A DNA stretch of 64,000 nt from Chloroflexota bacterium. GTDB lineage: Bacteria > Chloroflexota > Anaerolineae > Anaerolineales > Anaerolineaceae. The notes beneath the pieces were generated by a model. It saw only the letters and a list, made by a program, of their open reading frames with translations. It did not search any database and had not been told where the DNA came from. The translations under genes and the position numbers were made by a program. The stretch is taken from contig JAAYKH010000043.1 in assembly GCA_012522475.1 (NCBI GenBank), positions 1-64,000 of the forward strand, given 5' to 3'. Positions 4,869 through 16,133 of this stretch are shown piece after piece (the first letter of the stretch is position 1; each line of letters begins with the position of its first letter).

Positions 4869-4877
4869 ATCCCATCT

Positions 4878-6185
4878 ATGCAAAAAACCAGAATGATAAA
4901 AACCCTGATGGTCTTTTTGGTCATCGTTTCTGTTTCGGCGCTGTTGCTGGCAATCTACTTCCTCCCCCCGGTTCACAGCCGGCTTTCCTGGCGGCTCTCG
5001 GTACTGCGGGGGGATATCTATAATTATTTCAACCGGCCTGATGAGCAGGTTTTCATCCCAGGGCAAAAGAAAGACATGAGCGCCATAGAACTGACGCCCA
5101 CAGCCACGATGGCACCTCCGACGGCCACACTCGTGCCTTCAATAACACCCACAAATTATGTCTCTCCTACCCCAACGGAGACGCAGACCCCCACACCGAC
5201 GTCTACGCCAATTCCCTCTGCCATTCAATTGGAAGGCGTGCGGTATGAAAAGCAGGATTTTAATAACTGCGGACCCGCGAACCTCTCCATAGCGTTAAAC
5301 TACTGGGGATGGGAGGGCGATCAAAAGGTGACCGCAGCCAAGTTAAAGCCCTTCTCACGAGACCGCAATGTTATGCCCTACGAGATGGTGGATTTTGTGC
5401 GCACCCAAACTCACCTGGGCGCAGTACTGCGTTGGGGCGGCGACCTGGAGACAATTAAGAAATTCATTGCTGAGGGTTTTCCCGTCTTGATTGAACGCGG
5501 CTACCTGGAAGAGATTGCAGAATATGGCTGGATGGGACATTACAATGTTGTTACCGGCTATGATGATGCCCGAGAAGTTTTTATCGTACAGGATACCTAC
5601 CCTGGTATTCCCAATGCGCCCAATTCTTATGAGCGGATCGAACGACACTGGCGTGCCTTTAATTATGTGTATATCATCATCTACCCGCCGGAACGCGAGA
5701 CGCGGGTCTTTGAGCTTCTTGGACCGCAGGCTGATGAGGCCTACAATTTACAATATGCTGCTGAAAAAGCCCGGGAAGAGGTCAATGTCCTTTCCGGGAA
5801 AGAGCTGTTTTTCGGCTGGTACAACGTCGGCACCAGCCTGGTTAACTTGCAAGATTATTATGGCGCTGCCCAGGCTTATGATCAAGCCTTTGCCGTGTAT
5901 GCCGATATTTACCCGCGCCCATACCGGTTGTTCTGGTACTCCACCGGGGCATACTTTGCCTATTATTACACCGGGCGCTATCAGGATGTGATCGACCTGG
6001 CCGATATGGTTCTGGGTCTATCCGCCGAGCCCGCCATTGAAGAGACCTGGGTGTGGCGTGGGCGTGCCCGCAAGGCGCTGGGCAATATTGACGGCGCTGT
6101 GGAAGATTTCCGCGGAGCTTTAAAGTGGCATCCGGGCTGGTGGGTCGCTGAAAACGAATTGCATAGTTTGGGGATTTGGGATTAG
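4878..6185 (+). CDS. Membrane-anchored C39-like cysteine peptidase with TPR repeats (paralog 2, 435 aa)
   Basis: Same architecture as the gene before it: membrane segment (about 10-30), Thr/Pro-rich linker (about 72-114), C39 domain with Cys131 (NNCGP), His in GHYNVVTGYDD and Asp in VQDTY, then TPR-like helices ending in WVWRGRARKALGN. Both cytosolic tails begin with basic residues and share the AIYFLPPVH membrane-exit motif, so they arose by tandem duplication; the linker sequences have diverged most. I start it at ATG 4878 (MQKTRMIK), because that Met aligns with the paralog's N-terminus and sits just after a -10 box; the ORF-track start at 4812 adds 22 unrelated residues. Substrate unknown. 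Confidence 0.85.
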   Translation: MQKTRMIKTLMVFLVIVSVSALLLAIYFLPPVHSRLSWRLSVLRGDIYNYFNRPDEQVFIPGQKKDMSAIELTPTATMAPPTATLVPSITPTNYVSPTPTETQTPTPTSTPIPSAIQLEGVRYEKQDFNNCGPANLSIALNYWGWEGDQKVTAAKLKPFSRDRNVMPYEMVDFVRTQTHLGAVLRWGGDLETIKKFIAEGFPVLIERGYLEEIAEYGWMGHYNVVTGYDDAREVFIVQDTYPGIPNAPNSYERIERHWRAFNYVYIIIYPPERETRVFELLGPQADEAYNLQYAAEKAREEVNVLSGKELFFGWYNVGTSLVNLQDYYGAAQAYDQAFAVYADIYPRPYRLFWYSTGAYFAYYYTGRYQDVIDLADMVLGLSAEPAIEETWVWRGRARKALGNIDGAVEDFRGALKWHPGWWVAENELHSLGIWD

Positions 6186-6288
6186 GAATGGCATTGTTTG
6201 AAACCCAGTGAAAAGTGAATGGCGAGTGCTGCGCTTCGATCTCGATTTGGGGTTTTCAAGCGCTCATCATTAACGCTCCTTGTGAGAT

Positions 6289-6318
6289 TTGACAAAGTGA
6301 CGCCCTTATTTTTATAAT
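6289..6318 (+). promoter_or_regulatory. Consensus promoter of the amidohydrolase-radical SAM operon
   Basis: Perfect TTGACA (6289-6294) and perfect TATAAT (6313-6318) with an 18-bp spacer, about 55 bp before the amidohydrolase ATG. One of the strongest promoter matches in the window. Confidence 0.75.
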
Positions 6319-6372
6319 CAGTATAAGCCTGATGGATTAGGCCGCCCATTTTAAAATCATTTAGTAGGCCTC

Positions 6373-7512
6373 ATGCACTTTAAACCATTCAAAATTATTG
6401 ATAGCCATATTCATTTTCCGCATTATGCCTTCGCTGAGCCTTTGGTGAGCATTCTGGCAGAGGCTGGGGTTGAAAAGCTGGCTGTGGTTTGCACTCCCGA
6501 TGAAAAACGGTTCAGCTTGCTGCCGGATGCCCTGTACCTGAAAGGCTGTTACCCGGGGCGGGTGTACCTTTTCGGCGGTTTGGATATCTCACCCCTGTTG
6601 ATGACGCTAGATAACGCTGGCGAGACCTTTGCCCGTTATGTGGATGTGCTGGCAGGGCTGGGCGCGGACGGCATCAAGATGCTTGAAGGCAAGGCGGAAA
6701 TGCGCAAACGTTTGCCTATTCCCGATTTTGATGGCCCGGTTTACGCGCCGTATTGGGAAAAACTGGCTGAACGTCAAATGCCCCTGATCTTCCACGTCAA
6801 TGACCCGGAGGAATTTTGGGATGAGAAAAAAATCCCCAGCTGGGCACGGGAGATGGGCTGGTATTATGGCGATGGCACCTATATTGATAACGAAGCCCAA
6901 TACCGCCAGGTGTTGAACGTTCTGGACCGCCATCCCGACCTGAAGGTGATTTTTGCGCACTTTTTCTTCCTTAGTGCGCAGCTGGAACGGCTGGCAGATT
7001 ACCTTGACCGCTACCCGAATATGCACGTTGACCTGACCCCGGGCATTGAAATGTATTTCAATTTCGCCGTCCATCCGCAAAAAACGCGCGATTTCTTTAT
7101 TAAATACCAGGACCGAATTGTTTACGGTACCGACATCGGGGCGCAGGCGCTCCTGGCTGACACTGGGGTCGGCATTGAAGCTGAAGAGAGCCTGGCGCGT
7201 ATTGAAGTTGTACGGGGTTTCCTCGAAAAGGAAGGGCCTTTCCAGTTGACCCATGAAGGCTTCCTATTTGGCGGTCCGCAGGCTCGTTTTTTGGGCATCC
7301 ATCTGCCCGACCAGGTCCTGGAGAAGATCTACCATCAAAATTTCGAGCGCTTTGCCGGCGCAGTTCCCAAACTGCTGGACAACGCTGCCATCTTAGAGGA
7401 ATGCCAGCGTTTAGAGGCAGTGATTAACACGATCGGTGCCGTGATGCCCGGCATGACCGGTGACACCAGTTCCATTACCAAAGTTAGAGATTTCTTTAGC
7501 CATTCAATTTAA
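6373..7512 (+). CDS. Amidohydrolase family protein (379 aa)
   Basis: A TIM-barrel metal-dependent hydrolase of the amidohydrolase-2 type (PF04909). The first strand carries the HxH metal motif (IIDSHIHF, His12/His14), VIFAHFFF supplies the later His, and the C-terminal YGTDIG supplies the catalytic Asp. The length fits the family. Typical members act on amide, lactone or decarboxylation substrates; nothing here narrows the substrate. It is followed after 5 bp by a PflX-like radical SAM gene, so the two are co-transcribed from the promoter at 6289. It has no clear Shine-Dalgarno sequence. Confidence 0.85.
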   Translation: MHFKPFKIIDSHIHFPHYAFAEPLVSILAEAGVEKLAVVCTPDEKRFSLLPDALYLKGCYPGRVYLFGGLDISPLLMTLDNAGETFARYVDVLAGLGADGIKMLEGKAEMRKRLPIPDFDGPVYAPYWEKLAERQMPLIFHVNDPEEFWDEKKIPSWAREMGWYYGDGTYIDNEAQYRQVLNVLDRHPDLKVIFAHFFFLSAQLERLADYLDRYPNMHVDLTPGIEMYFNFAVHPQKTRDFFIKYQDRIVYGTDIGAQALLADTGVGIEAEESLARIEVVRGFLEKEGPFQLTHEGFLFGGPQARFLGIHLPDQVLEKIYHQNFERFAGAVPKLLDNAAILEECQRLEAVINTIGAVMPGMTGDTSSITKVRDFFSHSI

Positions 7513-7517
7513 TTGCT

Positions 7518-8438
7518 ATGTCTGAAACCAGGCCTGCTTATTTAAACTTAGTTGAAACGGGCCAGCTCTCGCGGCGGGTTGCCGAAGCTTTTGGGCGTTT
7601 GGAATCCTGCGATATCTGCCCACTGCGCTGCGGTGTGAACCGACTGTCGGGCGAATTGGGCATTTGCCAGACCGGGGTTTTAGCCCAGGTGAGCAGTTTT
7701 GGTCCTCACTTTGGGGAGGAACGTCCGCTCAGTGGCTGGCGCGGTTCGGGGACGATCTTCTTTGCGCGTTGTAACTTGCGCTGTGTCTTCTGCCAGAATG
7801 CCGATATCAGCCAGGGCTCCTTTGGGCGAAAAGCCAGCCCGCAAGAATTGGCAAATATCATGCTTGGCCTGCAAAAACAAGGTGTCCACAATATCAACCT
7901 GGTTTCGCCCAGCCATGTCGTCCCACAAATTTTAGCGGCGATTGAAATTGCTGCCGGGCAGGGGCTGTGCCTTCCGATTGTGTATAACACGGGCGGATAC
8001 GATTCCCTCGAGACGCTGGCACTGCTGGAAGGCGTGATTGACATCTACATGCCGGATATGAAATATGCTGACGCACACCTGGCATTTAAGTACTCCCGGA
8101 TTGAGGACTATCCCCGGAACAACCAGGCTGCGGTTTTGGAGATGCAGCGTCAGGTAAACGATTTACAAATAGACGCGCAGGGTCTGGCCTGGCGGGGTTT
8201 GCTGGTGCGGCACCTGGCGCTGCCAAATGGACTGGCTGGCAGCGAGAGGATCTTTAAATTCCTGGCTGAGAAAGTTTCCAAAAATGTGTACCTCAATATC
8301 ATGGCACAATACCATCCCGCGTTCAAAGTCCGCGGGCTGACAGGGGGCTATCCCGAATTAAACCGGCGTATTTCTGCTGACGAGTATCAATCCGCGCTTA
8401 GTATGGCTAAAATGTTCGGCCTGAGACGGTTGGATTAA
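7518..8438 (+). CDS. PflX-like radical SAM protein (306 aa)
   Basis: A radical SAM enzyme with the CxxxCxxC cluster motif at FFARCNLRCVFCQ (Cys85/89/92). It has an extra N-terminal cysteine cluster (Cys31, Cys34, Cys38, Cys50 in CDICPLRCGVNRLSG and GICQTG), the hallmark of the COG1313/PflX group related to pyruvate formate-lyase activases. It should bind a 4Fe-4S cluster, reduce S-adenosylmethionine and generate a radical on an unknown protein or small-molecule target. No glycyl radical enzyme gene lies in the window. It is co-transcribed with the amidohydrolase 5 bp upstream. The family is poorly characterised, so no gene symbol is given. Confidence 0.85.
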   Translation: MSETRPAYLNLVETGQLSRRVAEAFGRLESCDICPLRCGVNRLSGELGICQTGVLAQVSSFGPHFGEERPLSGWRGSGTIFFARCNLRCVFCQNADISQGSFGRKASPQELANIMLGLQKQGVHNINLVSPSHVVPQILAAIEIAAGQGLCLPIVYNTGGYDSLETLALLEGVIDIYMPDMKYADAHLAFKYSRIEDYPRNNQAAVLEMQRQVNDLQIDAQGLAWRGLLVRHLALPNGLAGSERIFKFLAEKVSKNVYLNIMAQYHPAFKVRGLTGGYPELNRRISADEYQSALSMAKMFGLRRLD

Positions 8439-8584
8439 ATAGGGCAGATTTATTCTGCAAATATCTATTCAGTTGATAAGCATTAATTAGGCTGTGTGCC
8501 AAAGGCCTAAGTTTCTATGCCAACCCTTAGGGTTTAGCGGGAAACAACCCGGTCTTCACAATTGGTAGGGCTTTTTTGTCCCCT

Positions 8585-8613
8585 TTGCTCTATTTTCTCG
8601 ACTTACTTATAGA
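8585..8613 (+). promoter_or_regulatory. Candidate promoter of the sigma factor operon
   Basis: TTGCTC (8585-8590), 17-bp spacer, TATAGA (8608-8613), 59 bp upstream of the sigma factor ATG. The rest of the 234-bp spacer (8439-8672) contains the palindrome AACCCTTAGGGTT near 8524 but no gene. Confidence 0.45.
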
Positions 8614-8672
8614 ACTCAAAAAAAATTAATGTTCCCTGCAGGCTATTGTTGAAGCGATCAGAGGAGAACTTT

Positions 8673-9248
8673 ATGGCAGGAAGCAGTATTGAATTGATGT
8701 CCAATAAAATTAATTATATGACGGATGAAAAAAGAATCATCAAAGCTGCAAGGCAGGACCCCAAGGCGTTTGGAGAATTGTACAAACTGTATGTTGAACA
8801 GGTTTTTCGATATCTCTTCAGCCGGATCGGGGATGTGCAAGAAGCTGAAGATGTTACGGCTCAGACATTTCTTGCGGCTTTCGAATCCTTTGATAAATTC
8901 CGACAGGATGGGCACTTTGTTTCCTGGTTGTTTGGAATTGCGCGTCATAAAGCAATGGATTATTTCCGCCGACGAGACGATTTATCGCCTATGGATGAGA
9001 CCAGCCAGGTCCCTGTTGAAGACAATACTTTAGCCAGGGTGATAAAAGCAGAACAAGAAGAAGCGTTGTCACAGCTTATCCAGACTTTACCTGAAGAAGA
9101 CCGCGAATTGCTCCGTTTACGTTTCTTGGCCGAAATGAGCTTTCCGGAAATTGCCCGTTTCCTGCATCGTAATGAAGACGCTGTTAAAAAAATGACATAC
9201 CGGTTACTGGCACGGTTGCACAGCCAGTTGGAGGTTTTAAATGAATGA
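8673..9248 (+). CDS. RNA polymerase ECF-type sigma factor (191 aa)
   Basis: Region 2 is recognised by KLYVEQVFRYLFSRIGD, EAEDVTAQTFLAAFES and the FVSWLFGIARHKAMDYFRRR block that binds the -10 element. Region 4 is the C-terminal helix-turn-helix (LPEEDRELLRLRFLAEMSFPEIARFLHRN). This is the layout and length of an extracytoplasmic-function sigma factor. I use ATG 8673 because it has an ideal AGAGGAG ribosome-binding site 6 nt upstream; the track start at 8646 lies before that site. The next gene starts 8 bp before this one ends, so the two are translationally coupled. Target promoters are not identifiable here. Confidence 0.92.
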   Translation: MAGSSIELMSNKINYMTDEKRIIKAARQDPKAFGELYKLYVEQVFRYLFSRIGDVQEAEDVTAQTFLAAFESFDKFRQDGHFVSWLFGIARHKAMDYFRRRDDLSPMDETSQVPVEDNTLARVIKAEQEEALSQLIQTLPEEDRELLRLRFLAEMSFPEIARFLHRNEDAVKKMTYRLLARLHSQLEVLNE

Positions 9249-11493
9249 AAAGTATGCCACCCCTCAGTTTGAAGCGCGTATTCGTAAGTCCTTTGGTGTA
9301 CCTGAGGTTCGCCCCGAATTTGTTGATGAGGTCTATGATCTTTTGATGCTGCAAGCGGTGGAAAAATCTAAAAAACCTCAATTTTTTTTAGGCCTGCGCC
9401 CGGCATGGATTGTTACTTTCGCGATGCTTGTCCTGATGATCCTCGGCACGTTGATGATTGGCCCACAACGCATCTACGCGGCGGTACTGCAGCTTTTTGG
9501 ATATATCCCCGGCGTGGGGATCGTGGATGTGAACGTGCCGATCCGCGTACTGGCGGAGCCGGTCAGCCTCACCCGCGATGGGGTTAAAGTATCTGTAAAC
9601 CAGGTCGTTCTGACTGAGACCGAAACGCGCTTAGATTTTGGCGTCTCTGGTGTTCCACTTTCTGCCTACCCACAGGTGGGAGCCACATCAGGGTGTATCG
9701 AGCGAGAATATCTGCGTTTGCCGGATGGCACGAGAATTGATGTGAACGCCCCCATACCGGCCAATGTGAATGAAGCCACATTTGTTCTGCCCTGTATATT
9801 CAACACTCTTCCAGGCACGGTTCCTGTTGCGTGGGAACTGCCAATACATTTTGTCCCAGCTCCGTCAGACCTCGTAATTCTGCCTGTCTTAGATGTGACT
9901 CCTTCATATGTACCAACAGGCCAAAAACCTGGTCTGGATATTGATACAACTTCAACGACAACCTTGAACGAATCAACGCAGGTTAACATTTCAATTGATA
10001 AAATCATCGAAACTGAGGAAGGCTATATCCTGCTGGGATATGTACGTCCTGACATTCCAGAAGGAAGCTGGCTGCAAATCACCGGTCCTGCAATAATTAA
10101 GGATGCGAACGGTAAAAACGTGAATTACACTTTCCCCAATGATGTTCAGCCACTCGATGACACCAGTCTTGGTCAAGGCGGTTATGCATGGGTAATGCAA
10201 ATCGATGGCGCTGGTGTTAAGTTTCCCATAACGATCAGCTTTTCCGGGGTAATTATTTCGCAGGTCGACTCTGAAGCATTTGCTAGAACCACAGTTAATG
10301 TGGGCTTGAACCCGCAACCTGAACAAATTTGGGAAGTTAATCAGGATGTTCAAATTGCCGGAAATACAATTCAATTGATATCTTTAACAGCCTGGGCAGA
10401 TGGGTATTCCTTCCGCATTGATCCGGGGAAGAATTTGAGTGGTGTTAGCGTTCAAATCGAAGGGTATCAAGCAATTGGCGGTGGAGGCGGCGAAGGTACA
10501 ACTAACGGAAAGGTGTTTACTACAAGCCTCAGTTATAGTAATTTACCAAAAGGTGATTTGACGATTCTATTCTCCAATCCGCGTTTAGCCAGCCCTACTG
10601 CCATCTGGCAGGCGGTATGGCAGCCGGAGACCGTACAACAATTTTCATCAATCGACGTATCTTCAACAGTCTGCTTGAATGCTGAATCATTCCAAAAACT
10701 AAGCCCAATACCAGCGGGGCTGACTGGCAAAGTCGTGTTAACCCAACTGAACCCTCAACTTCAAATCATCTTAGCTGGGATGGGTGGCAGCCCATTAGAA
10801 GTGCTTGTTACAGGTAATGGCCAGGCGGCTCTCACGCAAGATGGCAACCGCCTGGCATATACGACCGATGCAGGCATCAGAATCCAGAATCTATCGAGTG
10901 GAGAGTTCGCTGAGATAGCTGGCGTTTTTGGACGAGACCTTCATTGGTCACCCGATGGAAGCCAGCTCGCTTATGTGAACTCGGGTGATTTGTATGGCGT
11001 GTTCTTGATCAATAGTGATGATAAGCATCCAAGGCAACTTTCCAACCTGGGATATGAATCAATTGCGGGTTGGTCACCCGATGGATTCGTTCTTTATTAT
11101 GCAATTCCTGATTCAACCGGAAATGGCTTCTTGCTGCGATCGGTTGATGTAGATACTGGAAACACTCATGATCTGTTCGTGCTGGAAAACTCTTCCCGCA
11201 AAGCACCGATGTCGGCTGTGTCGCCAGATGGAAAGTGGATTGCTTATCGAGCCAGCGACAATAGCAGTCTGTTTATCAAAGGAATGGATGGAAGCCCGGC
11301 ACAATTGTTGCTGGACAACCCGGCTAATGCAATCAACGGCATTGCTTGGGATAAAAAAAGTCTCTTGCTCGGTGTGAGCTTGATCACCCCTGAATACCCT
11401 GATGGTGAGATCATCTTGATAGCACCTGATAGTTGCGAAACCTATCGTCTTCCCGGTTTGAGCGGCGAATTGGATGGAGTATTCATGCCATAA
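9241..11493 (+). CDS. Sigma-operon membrane protein with DUF4179-like region and C-terminal TolB-like propeller (750 aa)
   Basis: The N-terminal ~50 residues are charged and cytosolic, followed by one membrane helix (about 54-76) and a long extracytoplasmic part. The region after the helix resembles the DUF4179-type extracellular domain found in proteins encoded beside ECF sigma factors. The C-terminal ~220 residues contain repeated 'W/VSPDG..LAY' blades (HWSPDGSQLAYV, GWSPDGFVLYYA, AVSPDGKWIAYRA) of a TolB/WD40-like beta-propeller. Position and overlap with the sigma gene suggest an anti-sigma factor that senses an external ligand or stress through the propeller (inference; no ZAS zinc motif is visible in the cytosolic part). 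Lysine- and threonine-rich linkers separate the domains. Confidence 0.7.
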   Translation: MNEKYATPQFEARIRKSFGVPEVRPEFVDEVYDLLMLQAVEKSKKPQFFLGLRPAWIVTFAMLVLMILGTLMIGPQRIYAAVLQLFGYIPGVGIVDVNVPIRVLAEPVSLTRDGVKVSVNQVVLTETETRLDFGVSGVPLSAYPQVGATSGCIEREYLRLPDGTRIDVNAPIPANVNEATFVLPCIFNTLPGTVPVAWELPIHFVPAPSDLVILPVLDVTPSYVPTGQKPGLDIDTTSTTTLNESTQVNISIDKIIETEEGYILLGYVRPDIPEGSWLQITGPAIIKDANGKNVNYTFPNDVQPLDDTSLGQGGYAWVMQIDGAGVKFPITISFSGVIISQVDSEAFARTTVNVGLNPQPEQIWEVNQDVQIAGNTIQLISLTAWADGYSFRIDPGKNLSGVSVQIEGYQAIGGGGGEGTTNGKVFTTSLSYSNLPKGDLTILFSNPRLASPTAIWQAVWQPETVQQFSSIDVSSTVCLNAESFQKLSPIPAGLTGKVVLTQLNPQLQIILAGMGGSPLEVLVTGNGQAALTQDGNRLAYTTDAGIRIQNLSSGEFAEIAGVFGRDLHWSPDGSQLAYVNSGDLYGVFLINSDDKHPRQLSNLGYESIAGWSPDGFVLYYAIPDSTGNGFLLRSVDVDTGNTHDLFVLENSSRKAPMSAVSPDGKWIAYRASDNSSLFIKGMDGSPAQLLLDNPANAINGIAWDKKSLLLGVSLITPEYPDGEIILIAPDSCETYRLPGLSGELDGVFMP

Positions 11494-11526
11494 ACCGCAA
11501 CAGGCAAGTGGTTAACGTGAAAAAAA

Positions 11527-11551
11527 GAGGGTGGCTAAGGCAACCCTCCTT
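11527..11551 (+). terminator. Weak hairpin between the sigma-operon membrane protein and the lipoprotein
   Basis: GAGGGTGGC/GCAACCCTC can pair around a TAAG loop with one G-T pair and is followed by only a few T. It may attenuate rather than stop transcription into the next gene. Confidence 0.3.
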
Positions 11552-11573
11552 TCACCACCCAATGAGGAATATT

Positions 11574-12632
11574 ATGCAATTTCGGTTCCCCAGTTTTTTT
11601 ATGTGGTTAAGTGTCGTAGCTATCCTTTCAGGGTGTATGTCTACAGTTGATATAAAACCCCAAACCACTGCGACGCAAACCACTGCCATACCATTTTCAA
11701 CAGCGACCACGCAACCGACAACGGTGACACCCCTTCCATCACCAACGGTTACATCTGCACCGCTGTTCACGCAAATGCCTCTGGTTCAGAAAAGCGGGTT
11801 CGTTTTTATGGGCGAAACCATCCCGGACGGAACGAATCTTCAACCTGGACATAGCTTTCAAAAGACATGGACCATTAAAAACAATGGTTCGAGCACCTGG
11901 GATAAAAGCCTTGAATTGGTAAAGACGGCCTCCGATCCAGATAACGAATCACTTGGCAGTCCGGAGTATATTCCGCTGGCTCAAGAATTAAAACCTGGGG
12001 AGATAATCGAAATCAAGGTCGACCTGGTTGCTCCCCAACAAGACGGCCACTATACAGTTTTTTATGAACTTCGGGATGGAGTTGGCTTAACCATACTTAA
12101 TAGCCAAATTTGGGTAACAATTACCGTCGGAAACGTTCCAGTATCTGGCGCATATGGAGTAAGCGCACAACTTTTATCTGCCTATATGGATTATTCAGAA
12201 TTTAAAGTAGATTTTTGTATGCAGCTTCCTGATGAACGTCAATGGTACCCCGAGAAGGTGTTACTTCTGGTTAACCACCAACAATACGCGCCTGTTGCCA
12301 GCCGAATTGATCCAGTTGGTGCGACGACTGCAAACAAATGTTTCAGTTTTAGTTTTCCAGTTTCGATTGTTTCAGGAACAACGTATCAATTATCAATTGG
12401 AAAAGTGGAACTACCACCACAGGTCCATCAAGCGGAAAACTGTGCCCTGGCACAAACAATATTACGGACGGCTTACCCCGGATTAGATTTTAACTGCGCT
12501 GGACCTGGTTTTTGGTATACCCACCTGGTTTTACCAGCGGGTATGACAGAAGAACAGGCAGATCAATTGATTCTTGATGCGATGTCTAGCTCGATTTATG
12601 GGCCGTGGATATTAAACGGGGCTGCGCCCTGA
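11574..12632 (+). CDS. Lipoprotein with NBR1-like Ig domain
   Basis: The protein starts MQFRFPSFFMWLSVV and has a lipobox (LSGC), so it is exported and lipidated. A Thr-rich linker leads to an Ig-like domain of the type first named in NBR1 (PF16158): GETIPDGTNLQPGHSFQKTW, NNGSSTWD and the LKPGEIIEIKVDL strand are characteristic. The remaining ~170 residues contain four cysteines and no family I can name. ATG 11574 is preferred because GAGGAAT lies 6 nt upstream; the track's 11433 start overlaps the previous gene by 60 bp and 11562 is an alternative. It is the third gene of the sigma-factor cluster, so it may belong to the same envelope response. Confidence 0.75.
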   Translation: MQFRFPSFFMWLSVVAILSGCMSTVDIKPQTTATQTTAIPFSTATTQPTTVTPLPSPTVTSAPLFTQMPLVQKSGFVFMGETIPDGTNLQPGHSFQKTWTIKNNGSSTWDKSLELVKTASDPDNESLGSPEYIPLAQELKPGEIIEIKVDLVAPQQDGHYTVFYELRDGVGLTILNSQIWVTITVGNVPVSGAYGVSAQLLSAYMDYSEFKVDFCMQLPDERQWYPEKVLLLVNHQQYAPVASRIDPVGATTANKCFSFSFPVSIVSGTTYQLSIGKVELPPQVHQAENCALAQTILRTAYPGLDFNCAGPGFWYTHLVLPAGMTEEQADQLILDAMSSSIYGPWILNGAAP

Positions 12633-12670
12633 TTTAATCTACCTTTATTCTTGAACACTCTGAAAAACGA

Positions 12671-12701
12671 GAAAACCATCCGGCAAATGCCGAAGGTTTT
12701 C
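12671..12701 (+). terminator. Terminator-like hairpin after the NBR1-Ig lipoprotein
   Basis: GAAAACC/GGTTTTC forms the outer stem and CGGCA/TGCCG the inner stem around a short loop. There is no long T-tract after it, so it is a stable 3' end rather than a textbook intrinsic terminator. The remainder of 12702-12892 holds only AT-rich sequence and the murI promoter. Confidence 0.5.
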
Positions 12702-12892
12702 AGTGCCCCCTGAGATCAATGATTTTTTAATATCATGAGGGTTAAACGAAATCTTTATTCTGCGACTGGCGGGCTAAACCAGTTATTCAACCTTTTTAAA
12801 GGTTGATCGTTGGTTCACTTCAAATTCATTTGCACATTGATGCTATTGAATGTTTGCCCAATGCCAATCGGCCTCGTGATACAATTGACGCC

Positions 12893-13726
12893 ATGCAAAT
12901 GGCTGTGATGTCTAATAAGCCTATCGGCATCTTCGATTCAGGGGTGGGTGGATTATCAGTGCTGCGCGCCATGCGCACATTGCTCCCCACTGAGGACATG
13001 CTCTACCTGGCAGACCAGGCGCATATCCCTTATGGCCCACGCCAAAAAGCGGATATCCGCGCCTTTGCCCACGGCATCACCGAGTACTTGTTAGCCCAGG
13101 GTGCTAAGTTGATTGTGGTGGCCTGCAATACCGCCTCCGCTGCGGCACTGCACGACCTGCGGGCACATTTTCCTGAAACACCCTTTGTGGGCATGGAACC
13201 GGCGCTTAAACCCGCTGCCGCGCTGACGAAAACCGGGCGGGTGGGCGTGCTGGCGACACCCACCACCTTTGCCGGTGATATGTATACTTCGCTGGTGGAC
13301 CGCTTTGCACAGGGTATTCAAATCTATCAAAACACCTGCCCCGGGCTGGTAGAGCAGATTGAACGGGGCGAGTTGGATACGCCCGTCACCCGGGCGATTT
13401 TGGAGGCAGCGCTGCACCCCATGCTGGCAGAAGCTGTTGATACTGTCGTGTTGGGTTGTACCCATTACCCCTTTGTGATCCCGCTGATACAAGAGATCAC
13501 CGGACCTGATGTGCACACCATTGACCCTGCACCGGCAATTGCCCGTCAAACCCGGCGCTTGCTGGAAGAACGTGGCTGGCTCAACGCGAAACAACCTTCG
13601 GGGGAAATTACGTTCTTCACCAGCGGCGCGGTAGCGACGCTAGCTGTTATGCTGCCGGCCCTGCTGGGAGAAATTGGAATTGTTCAGCAGTTATGTTGGG
13701 TAAAGTCTAAGCTGCAAACTGGATAA
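12893..13726 (+). CDS. murI: Glutamate racemase (277 aa)
   Basis: Converts L-glutamate to D-glutamate for peptidoglycan. The family motifs are complete: PIGIFDSGVGGLSVL near the N-terminus, the first catalytic cysteine Cys78 in VVACNTASA and the second, Cys189, in VVLGCTHYPF. Length is normal. I start at ATG 12893 because a TACAAT box lies 7 nt upstream, the alignable family N-terminus begins here, and the extra 30 residues of the track start (12803) look like non-coding sequence. No Shine-Dalgarno sequence is present, so the mRNA may be leaderless; alternative in-frame ATG at 12908. It stands alone, convergent with the subtilase gene. Confidence 0.93.
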   Translation: MQMAVMSNKPIGIFDSGVGGLSVLRAMRTLLPTEDMLYLADQAHIPYGPRQKADIRAFAHGITEYLLAQGAKLIVVACNTASAAALHDLRAHFPETPFVGMEPALKPAAALTKTGRVGVLATPTTFAGDMYTSLVDRFAQGIQIYQNTCPGLVEQIERGELDTPVTRAILEAALHPMLAEAVDTVVLGCTHYPFVIPLIQEITGPDVHTIDPAPAIARQTRRLLEERGWLNAKQPSGEITFFTSGAVATLAVMLPALLGEIGIVQQLCWVKSKLQTG

Positions 13727-13862
13727 TGGGTTTAATTGGCCCTGGCAAGGAGTGACCCCATCGCAGCACCCGAACGGGAAGGGGTACGCATCTCAATTAT
13801 TCTCAAGCAAAGCCGCTCTTGAACCATGCTGGCAAAGGTCCCTGATGAATGCCAGGGCAAGC

Positions 13863-16133
13863 TCAATGGAAAAAGAGTGGGAAGATATATTGATAGCTGA
13901 ATGATGGCTTTTGTGCTTCAGTATAATAGATTGCCAGTGCAAAGTCCTGGTCCAGGTCACCCCCAAAATTCGGCACACCATCGCCGCTGATGTTGGCAGC
14001 GGTGACCGTTAAGGTATAGGTGCCCTCTGGAAGCGATTCCAAAAAGAGGCCCTCGGTGTTGTTTTTTGTGTCCGGCGTCCCGCCGGGTATGGAAAGACCC
14101 TCCGCGTTAAAACGATTACCATAGTAAACCTGACCGTCAATTTCAAGCGACAGATCCAGATCGTTAACCCAGGCCTGAGTCGCCCCTCCCAGACCGTGCC
14201 CGGGCGCGTCTGTCCAGGTCAGCATGGCGCGTAAGAATTGAACAGGGGCTTCAAAGGTGAGCTTTGTTGACCACGTCTGCCCTGATGCATTGAAGATGTG
14301 TGCCTGGTCATAATAAAATACCATGCCCGGAGGGTTCAGCACCGCGTCGAGGTTCAGGCGACCCCAGCCCTGTTTCGAATCGAAGGGGTGACTCAATACC
14401 TTGCCATTTGCGTCCAGGTGCCCGGCCAGGCTGTGTGCTACGGGCAGGAAAGCGGCTTTAACCAGCGCGGGGCTGGGATCAACCCCAAATTTCCCTCGGT
14501 ACTGCTCGAAAAATAATGCAATCGCGCCGCTGACGTGGGGGGCAGCCATGCTGGTGCCGCACTTGGTTCCATAATCAGAATTTGGCAGACTCGAATCTAC
14601 ATAGCAACCCGGCGCGACCAACAAAGGCAGGTTGCGCCCATCCAAAGCCGGGCCATGGGCGGTGTTGGCTGAGAGGTTGTTGATATTCAGGTTCTGATTG
14701 CCAGCACCATCCTGCATGATCGTGGAACCCACGCTGAAGACGTTTTTGGCCTCATCCGGTGTTCCCTGGGTGGAGGTCTTGCCATACCCGTTCATGATTG
14801 AAAGTACATAGGTCAGGGGCTGGTTACCCGGTTCATCCGGATCAGCATCGCGCACACCGACATCCACCAGGCGGGTGTCAGCATCGTAGCCGCGGGGCGT
14901 TCCTGCAACACCCCAGCTATTGTTGGAGATAACGGCGCCATTTTGATAGGATTGGGTCATCAGGGTTAACATCCCACCTGAATGGGTGTATGTGGGCGAA
15001 AAGAGTTGTTCCACCAGGCTGGCACCCGGGGCCGTTCCCAGACTGCGTAGAAAGCCAGCGCTGTCAACCTCACCGGAGGAGCCATCACCGCCCATAATGC
15101 CCGCAGTGTGGGTGCCGTGGTCGCTGAAAACATCATTCCCACAGGTGGAACCGCTGCAGCTTATCATGCGATTTAACAGGTCGGGATGACTTTGATCGAT
15201 TCCATTATCCACATTAGCCATCACCACCCCCTGTCCGGAAAGGCCCATCTGCCCCAGCCAGCTGAGGTAGCCCGGGAAGGCCTGGTTGATGTGATTAATA
15301 TTGCCAGCATTGACTTGGTCGCTCAGCTCGCCCCGTTCACCACCATCAGTGGGCACAGGCTGGACAGTATACACGCCCGGCAGCACTGCCACCGCAGGCA
15401 GGCGGTCCGTAGGCAGGGTGCAGGTGATCAGGTCAAAAACCGGGTCCAGCCCGGATTGTGAGCTAATTTGTGTTCCGCCCAAACCTTCAATAGCCTGCAA
15501 GGTTTCATCTAATCCCGCCCGGGGGTAGAGCAGGATGCGCACCTGGATGGGTTCAATCGCCTGGGTGCGAAAAACTGGCGAGAGGGCATAGGCAGGCAAG
15601 AAGTCTCCTGTCCAGCGGACAAAATCCCCACGGGTTTTCCCAGTGAGCATGTCCGGATCGCCCCACACCACGTAAGTGAAAGGGTGGATATATAGAACAA
15701 CCTCCAGCCCGGCTGCCTCGAGTTCCGCCAACCACTCGTCCTTGGTGGGCCCCAGGAATTGCACCAAGTGCAGGCCGGGTTCGTTGGGATGGCTTAGGGC
15801 TTGCCATTCCAGGTTGGACCGGGGTGGGGAGAGCAGTGGGTCAAAGGTCTCGCCGCCCAGGGTCAGCAGATAGGGATTGGGATAAACAAGGGCTGGCACA
15901 CCAGATTGCTGAAGCGCATCCAATTCTTCAGCAGACATCACCACCCAGATGAAGGCACCGTAATCGATCACAATTTCGCCGAGAACTCCCAGCGCGCGCG
16001 ACCCAACACTCTTTGTTTCAATCGGGATGCGCACACCTACTATGGGCACCTGGGCTTCAGCCTGTGGGGGCAGGGGCGCCATAAGGAGGATTAACAGCGC
16101 TGAAACGAACAACTGAAGGATCCTGCGGGCCAT
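13863..16133 (-). CDS. Secreted S8 family serine protease (subtilase, 756 aa)
   Basis: Signal peptide (MARRILQLFVSALLILLMA, likely cut after AEA near residue 27), a long N-terminal extension (about 30-290), then the subtilisin domain with Asp309 (VDNGIDQSHPDL), His339 (DHGTHTAG), the oxyanion Asn (SNNSWG, about 405) and Ser528 (GTSMAAPHVSG). The last ~150 residues are a beta-rich domain of the type found after the catalytic domain in large secreted subtilases, including the DLDLSLEIDG element. The catalytic triad is intact, so an active extracellular protease is expected; the N-terminal extension probably acts as an inhibitor-type propeptide. It lies 48 bp downstream of the ABC-F gene on the same strand, with no clear ribosome-binding site. 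Confidence 0.9.
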   Translation of the reverse strand: MARRILQLFVSALLILLMAPLPPQAEAQVPIVGVRIPIETKSVGSRALGVLGEIVIDYGAFIWVVMSAEELDALQQSGVPALVYPNPYLLTLGGETFDPLLSPPRSNLEWQALSHPNEPGLHLVQFLGPTKDEWLAELEAAGLEVVLYIHPFTYVVWGDPDMLTGKTRGDFVRWTGDFLPAYALSPVFRTQAIEPIQVRILLYPRAGLDETLQAIEGLGGTQISSQSGLDPVFDLITCTLPTDRLPAVAVLPGVYTVQPVPTDGGERGELSDQVNAGNINHINQAFPGYLSWLGQMGLSGQGVVMANVDNGIDQSHPDLLNRMISCSGSTCGNDVFSDHGTHTAGIMGGDGSSGEVDSAGFLRSLGTAPGASLVEQLFSPTYTHSGGMLTLMTQSYQNGAVISNNSWGVAGTPRGYDADTRLVDVGVRDADPDEPGNQPLTYVLSIMNGYGKTSTQGTPDEAKNVFSVGSTIMQDGAGNQNLNINNLSANTAHGPALDGRNLPLLVAPGCYVDSSLPNSDYGTKCGTSMAAPHVSGAIALFFEQYRGKFGVDPSPALVKAAFLPVAHSLAGHLDANGKVLSHPFDSKQGWGRLNLDAVLNPPGMVFYYDQAHIFNASGQTWSTKLTFEAPVQFLRAMLTWTDAPGHGLGGATQAWVNDLDLSLEIDGQVYYGNRFNAEGLSIPGGTPDTKNNTEGLFLESLPEGTYTLTVTAANISGDGVPNFGGDLDQDFALAIYYTEAQKPSFSYQYIFPLFFH

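Follow-up and report, generated by a model that had tools for sequence, protein, structure and literature searches.

A candidate self-regulated ECF sigma/anti-sigma cassette with an exchangeable propeller ectodomain in an Anaerolineaceae genome

What is a sigma factor gene doing when it overlaps the gene of a large membrane protein and is followed by a lipoprotein gene? The question is raised by positions 8575–12632 of the window, by which we mean the whole 64,000-nucleotide stretch analysed here (contig JAAYKH010000043.1 of assembly GCA_012522475.1, Chloroflexota, Anaerolineaceae). The original prediction, made from the letters alone, took the three genes for a possible surface-signal operon. 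This interpretation is supported in part, and is extended here by a promoter, horizontal acquisition, ectodomain exchange and an RsiV-like segment. We give a probability of about 0.62 to the reading of the cassette as an extracytoplasmic function (ECF) sigma/anti-sigma sensor unit that was acquired horizontally, regulates itself, works in the manner of RsiV and other DUF4179 proteins and carries an exchangeable propeller ectodomain. Gene coupling, the conserved promoter and its uniqueness in the genome, insertion, co-divergence and ectodomain exchange were computed directly. The main features are:

8575–12632, + strand: whole cassette, with promoter, sigma, anti-sigma/receptor and lipoprotein genes (blastn block, congener flanks, G+C)
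8577–8605, + strand: ECF-type promoter TGTCCC-N16-CGACTTA (conserved before relatives' sigma genes; single genome match)
8673–9248, + strand: ECF sigma factor, 191 residues, regions 2 and 4 only (Pfam/NCBIfam; Shine-Dalgarno sequence AGAGGAGAA)
9241–11493, + strand: membrane anti-sigma-like receptor, 750 residues (8-bp overlap; ECF sigma gene upstream in homologues)
11574–12632, + strand: lipoprotein, 352 residues, with lipobox LSGC, NBR1-Ig domain (82–185) and a C-terminal domain with four invariant Cys (Pfam 8e-21, alignment)

Gene coupling and the promoter

The sigma gene runs from the ATG at 8673, preceded by AGAGGAGAA, to the stop codon at 9246–9248, and the receptor gene from the ATG at 9241 to the stop at 11491–11493, so that the 8-bp overlap originally described is borne out by the coordinates. 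By its domain content the first product is an ECF sigma factor: Pfam finds Sigma70_r2 at residues 36–102 (3e-14) and Sigma70_r4_2 at 130–182 (3e-11) with no other region, and the sigma70-ECF superfamily model of NCBIfam gives 88 bits (cut-off 42.9), while the nearest NCBIfam subfamily models all score under their cut-offs.

Of 147 family genomes, 57 contain a receptor homologue, as do 17 of 301 taken from the phylum; the strong homologues fall nearly all within the same order. When neighbourhoods were read in longer stretches of relatives' DNA (L031–L092), an ECF sigma gene stood directly upstream of 51 of 55 receptor homologues; of the remaining four, one lies at a contig-end cut and one is a fragment. 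The paired genes mostly overlap by a few bases, allowing for alternative starts. Coupling of the sigma factor to the membrane protein is thus beyond chance. Some genomes (G021, G019, G166 and others) hold up to nine receptor-homologous matches each.

The element TGTCCC-N16-CGACTTA lies upstream of the sigma gene with ECF spacing, and the search for shared promoter motifs proposed at the outset recovered the same element in front of most relatives' sigma genes. All promoter searches used patterns, not a weight matrix. The tolerant pattern TGTC[CA]C-N15-17-CG[AT]..TA matched 23 times in 536 kb of relatives' DNA, each time upstream of such a sigma gene (21 assigned automatically, two by inspection: in L055 a spurious open reading frame (ORF) intervenes and in L068 the sigma ORF is extended upstream). 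The window's own genome (2.26 Mb, 98.6% complete) has a single copy of the element, whether 0 or 1 mismatch is allowed, with no further target promoter at either level, and a looser pattern gave 2 matches versus 12 for the reversed control. The extra loose match, TGTCATATC...CGACCTA at G000:C81, was rejected as a target; a same-strand ORF contains it. Eight other genomes have 14 exact matches between them, of which 12 stand before a known or probable sigma gene. Because the element is single in its genome, the sigma factor is, as far as pattern matching tells, without another near-consensus target there, degenerate targets being possible. A scan for sigma-70 promoters was set aside, its matches being below chance.

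Insertion, co-divergence and exchange of the ectodomain

The cassette sits between two genes that have an arrangement of their own in related genomes:

7518–8438: radical SAM (S-adenosylmethionine) enzyme, adjoining glutamate racemase in five congeners
12893–13723: glutamate racemase, adjoining the radical SAM gene in five congeners

These flanking genes are directly adjacent in G003, G006, G007, G008 and G013, and therefore the cassette was inserted at the window locus. Protein search found no receptor homologue in 15 congeners, and in two congeners searched by profile the sole match was marginal and 68 residues long (G011, E 9e-4). Comparison by blastn of 6001–14500 with the nearest relative locus, L051, returned one block, 81% identical over 4072 bp and covering exactly 8575–12632; its left edge is two bases ahead of the –35 box, its right edge coincides with the final base of the lipoprotein gene, and the flanks are unrelated. 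G+C content is 42–51% in the cassette and 49–58% in the flanks. The cassette was probably acquired horizontally from a relative. Its position may alternatively be an assembly chimera, but a single 93-kb contig spans both junctions, which are intergenic. No convincing integrase or terminal repeats were found at the cassette ends, and a cassette on plasmids was rejected, tblastn of a plasmid collection giving no receptor match.

Which parts of the cassette evolve together can be asked along the receptor, whose parts are as follows:

9241–9375, + strand: residues 1–45, putative sigma-binding domain on the cytoplasmic side (two helices predicted, zinc motif absent, co-divergence)
9400–9459, + strand: residues 54–73, single transmembrane helix (sequence; helix in model)
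9463–9528, + strand: residues 75–96, DUF4179-like segment PQRIYAAVLQLFGYIPGVGIVD after the membrane helix, in which 78–80 may be a signal-peptidase motif, [VI]-x-A (conservation; match in homologue L041)
9529–10650, + strand: residues 97–470, extracytoplasmic beta domains with two invariant Cys, 152 and 185 (alignments)
10822–11451, + strand: residues 528–737, TolB/PD40-like propeller (Pfam, Foldseek, PDB profiles, model)

Among 17 pairs whose sigma factor is more than 50% identical to that of the window (its own pair included), identity of receptor residues 1–45 follows sigma identity with r = 0.80, a value reached in none of 500 permutations, although permutation figures here and below are not strict probabilities because the sigma/receptor pairs share ancestry. 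The corresponding r is 0.02–0.08 for the beta domains and the propeller. Stepping along the receptor 30 residues at a time gives correlations of 0.67, 0.67 and 0.34, then about 0 from residue 91. A link between the sigma factor and the N-terminal domain of the receptor is supported by this pattern.

The relative L056 is a clear mosaic that shows an ectodomain exchange directly: the promoter, the sigma gene and receptor residues 1 to ∼98 group with L051 and the remainder with L060, the best split statistic being 521, where 500 permutations reached 118 at most. The breakpoint lies in a conserved stretch where the post-membrane segment ends, right after the membrane switch. It should be noted separately that L051 and L052 are 98.7% identical over 14 kb, and L056 and L057 98.5% over 6.7 kb, with the genomes of each couple assigned to different genera; this is either recent transfer or binning error.

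We tentatively suggest, with rather less confidence than even odds would carry, that Anaerolineales hold a mobile family of such cassettes, in which a constant half (promoter, sigma, cytoplasmic domain and membrane switch) is joined to an exchangeable sensory half, and in which the operon's own surface proteins, a shed or retained propeller and the NBR1-Ig lipoprotein, would be the output. This would be a plug-in surface-display circuit, not a global stress regulator. The surface proteins are proposed as output because the promoter is found almost solely before the cassette itself.

A candidate RsiV-like switch

The membrane protein begins with ∼50 cytoplasmic residues, followed by one membrane helix, the beta domains and the C-terminal propeller. 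As had been noted originally, the Hx3Cx2C motif of zinc anti-sigma (ZAS, class I) domains is absent, residues 1–50 having neither Cys nor His. A low-confidence structure model places helices at residues 8–17 and 25–42. Class I anti-sigma domains average 101 residues (PMC7406223), and the receptor N-terminus would fit the class II (CnrY-like) type better, with its ∼45 cytoplasmic residues, two predicted helices and no zinc, a likeness of length and predicted helices alone. The propeller is seen by several methods (PD40 repeats in Pfam, 4e-10; Foldseek matches to TolB structures, E ∼1e-10 with TM-score ∼0.5 by target length; PDB profile matches to TolB, E 1e-19 to 1e-21), which confirms the TolB-like domain of the original prediction. 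Several homologues of only 456–540 residues share the N-terminal module and end before the propeller, so it is not essential to the receptor family. By analogy it is plausible that the propeller or the ectodomain as a whole senses an extracytoplasmic ligand. An RsiV-type lysozyme-binding ectodomain gave no Pfam match in the window protein, which has the propeller in its place.

Directly after the membrane helix comes the segment pattern PQR[IV]YA..LFGYIPGVGIVD. In 48 sequences position 78 is V or I in all, Ala80 is kept in 43, Pro90 in 47 and Gly93 in 48. Pfam DUF4179 matches residues 51–132 of the homologue L041 (E 1.1e-5, 26.2 bits, under the curated cut-off of 30.1) and weakly four further homologues (L080, E 0.0018; three weaker); the DUF4179-like region claimed for the window protein thus stands by way of its homologues and not by a match of its own. 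In Bacillus subtilis RsiV, DUF4179 holds the signal-peptidase site together with amphipathic helices that guard this site until lysozyme binds (PMC6066255), and site-2 cleavage by RasP comes next (PMC8844934). Three DUF4179 sequences were recorded in Chloroflexi in 2018 (PMC6066255, Table 1). The window's genome encodes candidates for signal peptidase I and for M50 (site-2) proteases; a small gene of the latter family, with a 215-residue frame, is found on the same contig (window 23252–23773, – strand).

The working that we propose would be the following. The short N-terminal helices of the receptor would hold the sigma factor at the membrane, and the post-membrane segment would shield a signal-peptidase-like site in the RsiV/DUF4179 manner. 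Sensing of a ligand or of the surface state would fall to the beta domains and the TolB-like propeller, and the signal would expose the site, so that signal peptidase and then site-2 protease could cut the receptor. The freed sigma factor would transcribe its own operon, giving more receptor and more NBR1-Ig lipoprotein, the latter serving as effector or as signal-tuning co-receptor. Sigma binding, proteolysis, the ligand, the direction of signalling and the role of the lipoprotein, and with them every step from ligand to release, are what we infer.

Several observations weigh against this reading. The –3 residue of the putative cleavage site (position 78) is Ile in the window protein and Val in 47 of 48 sequences, and the window protein itself has no DUF4179 match in Pfam. 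Nearly every genome encodes signal peptidase and site-2 proteases. The predicted models are of low confidence (mean predicted local distance difference test score, pLDDT, of 52). Co-divergence of the N-terminal part could also be produced by gene linkage with recombination further downstream. The promoter search detects near-consensus sites only. Finally, most sigma/receptor pairs are without the lipoprotein gene, so the core circuit can work in its absence.

The lipoprotein, rival explanations and known systems

For the lipoprotein gene we prefer the start at ATG 11574 (GAGG upstream) to the long TTG ORF from 11433; it ends at 12632. The NBR1-Ig lipoprotein originally seen downstream is recovered by Pfam as N_BRCA1_IG (8e-21). 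The same two-domain lipoprotein follows directly after 9 of 48 non-redundant sigma/receptor pairs, so co-occurrence of the three genes, whose absence elsewhere would have spoken against the original prediction, extends to nine non-redundant loci with the window counted. One of them, L037, is a distant three-gene unit (receptor 37% and lipoprotein 34–36% identical to those of the window). In the family, 15 loci (one cut by a contig end) have a lipoprotein alike beyond the NBR1-Ig domain, and at 11 of them it lies directly behind a receptor gene, though independent events are fewer than these counts because two pairs among the loci are near-identical. The structure prediction for the lipoprotein (mean pLDDT 52) was not used. 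Common ancestry of its C-terminal domain with the first beta domain of the receptor was considered for a similar register and rejected (hhalign P 0.0087, 4.6% probability, 8 comparisons). A single ORF at L081:3593–5047 carries a LuxR-type helix-turn-helix, a membrane helix, NBR1-Ig and the C-terminal domain of the cassette lipoprotein, and might be a one-component surface sensor. Because it joins both lipoprotein domains to a LuxR-type DNA-binding domain, it suggests a signalling role for the lipoprotein. At L082:3577–6664 (also L083 and L084, the arrangement being very similar in the three genomes) there are three adjacent genes with this C-terminal domain, one with NBR1-Ig, and no sigma gene nearby.

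Between the receptor and lipoprotein genes lies a further element:

11523–11552, + strand: imperfect intercistronic hairpin without a T-tract (score 22 versus 16.7 ± 3.3 in shuffles)

A hairpin stands behind the receptor gene, strong in most relatives and of different sequence there, weak in the window. Relatives without the lipoprotein carry it too, which rules it out as a lipoprotein-specific element and makes it probably the end signal of an older two-gene operon.

Alternatives to the proposed mechanism differ in which step they replace. Activation might do without regulated proteolysis of the signal-peptidase type, if a ligand on the ectodomain shifted the N-terminal helices through the membrane or if another protease freed the sigma factor. 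The Ile at –3 and the missing DUF4179 match of the window protein would agree with this, but the [VI]-x-A motif and the segment after it are strongly conserved and the relatives do show DUF4179 similarity, and we hold it somewhat unlikely. A sigma/anti-sigma pair with a wider regulon, reached through degenerate promoters and with the lipoprotein as one output of several, appears less likely still. ECF regulons may include promoters that diverge from the autoregulatory one, and most relatives, having no downstream lipoprotein gene, need some output; the own genome, however, has one match at 0 or 1 mismatch, and the loose pattern stays at 2 against 12 in the control.

That the lipoprotein is an unrelated passenger, placed behind the operon by chance or hitch-hiking, we regard as improbable. 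Its presence after just 9 of 48 non-redundant pairs and the hairpin that often separates it from the receptor gene would favour a passenger, whereas 11 of the 15 loci with this lipoprotein type, the distant L037 included, have it directly behind the receptor gene, and the DNA homology of the cassette stops exactly at the lipoprotein stop codon.

Among the known systems nearest to the sensor unit that we favour is sigmaV-RsiV of B. subtilis (ECF30; DUF4179 anti-sigma with a lysozyme-binding ectodomain), which would have in common with it an ECF sigma factor with a single-pass anti-sigma, a small-x-Ala motif just behind the membrane helix, in a region that is DUF4179 in RsiV (PMC6066255) and DUF4179-like here, and a sigma promoter before its own operon. 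The unit differs by its beta domains and TolB-like propeller, its Chloroflexota host and the NBR1-Ig lipoprotein downstream, and its DUF4179 similarity is weak and seen via relatives only. In DUF4179 anti-sigma factors of the BAS1627 type in Firmicutes (3FBQ, in PMC6066255) the extracytoplasmic domain that comes after DUF4179 bears no relation to that of RsiV. The ectodomain of the cassette is a different one; a PDB profile search with the N-terminal 240 columns of the receptor alignment gave no match to a solved structure up to E 10. SigI/RsgI of Clostridium thermocellum resembles the cassette family by having several sigma/anti-sigma paralogues for different substrates and an anti-sigma reported to be cut by RseP (PMC12203970), a likeness by description; SigI is not an ECF factor, and its regulon covers cellulosome genes. 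In ECF57 the sigma factors themselves are reported to carry WD40-like repeats as a C-terminal extension (PMC8999054), an arrangement other than that of the cassette. A search of the literature brought up no ECF anti-sigma factor with a propeller in Chloroflexota; an earlier listing among the ECF groups is possible.

Two neighbouring genes may be mentioned. A protein with a C39-like peptidase domain, an N-terminal hydrophobic stretch and tetratricopeptide repeats is encoded at 4872–6185 of the window, upstream of an amidohydrolase gene and the radical SAM gene, and a secreted subtilase-like protease at 13863–16133 (– strand), downstream of glutamate racemase.

On the reading preferred here, signalling parts like those of RsiV would form a multi-copy family in one order of Chloroflexota, its sensory halves exchanged by recombination, with a promoter specific enough for counting genome by genome. 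Bacterial NBR1-Ig lipoproteins would thereby be tied to signalling. Both the evolution of ECF systems, in which a conserved switch gains new sensors, and the single-operon regulon would become open to test in a phylum where genetic models are few.

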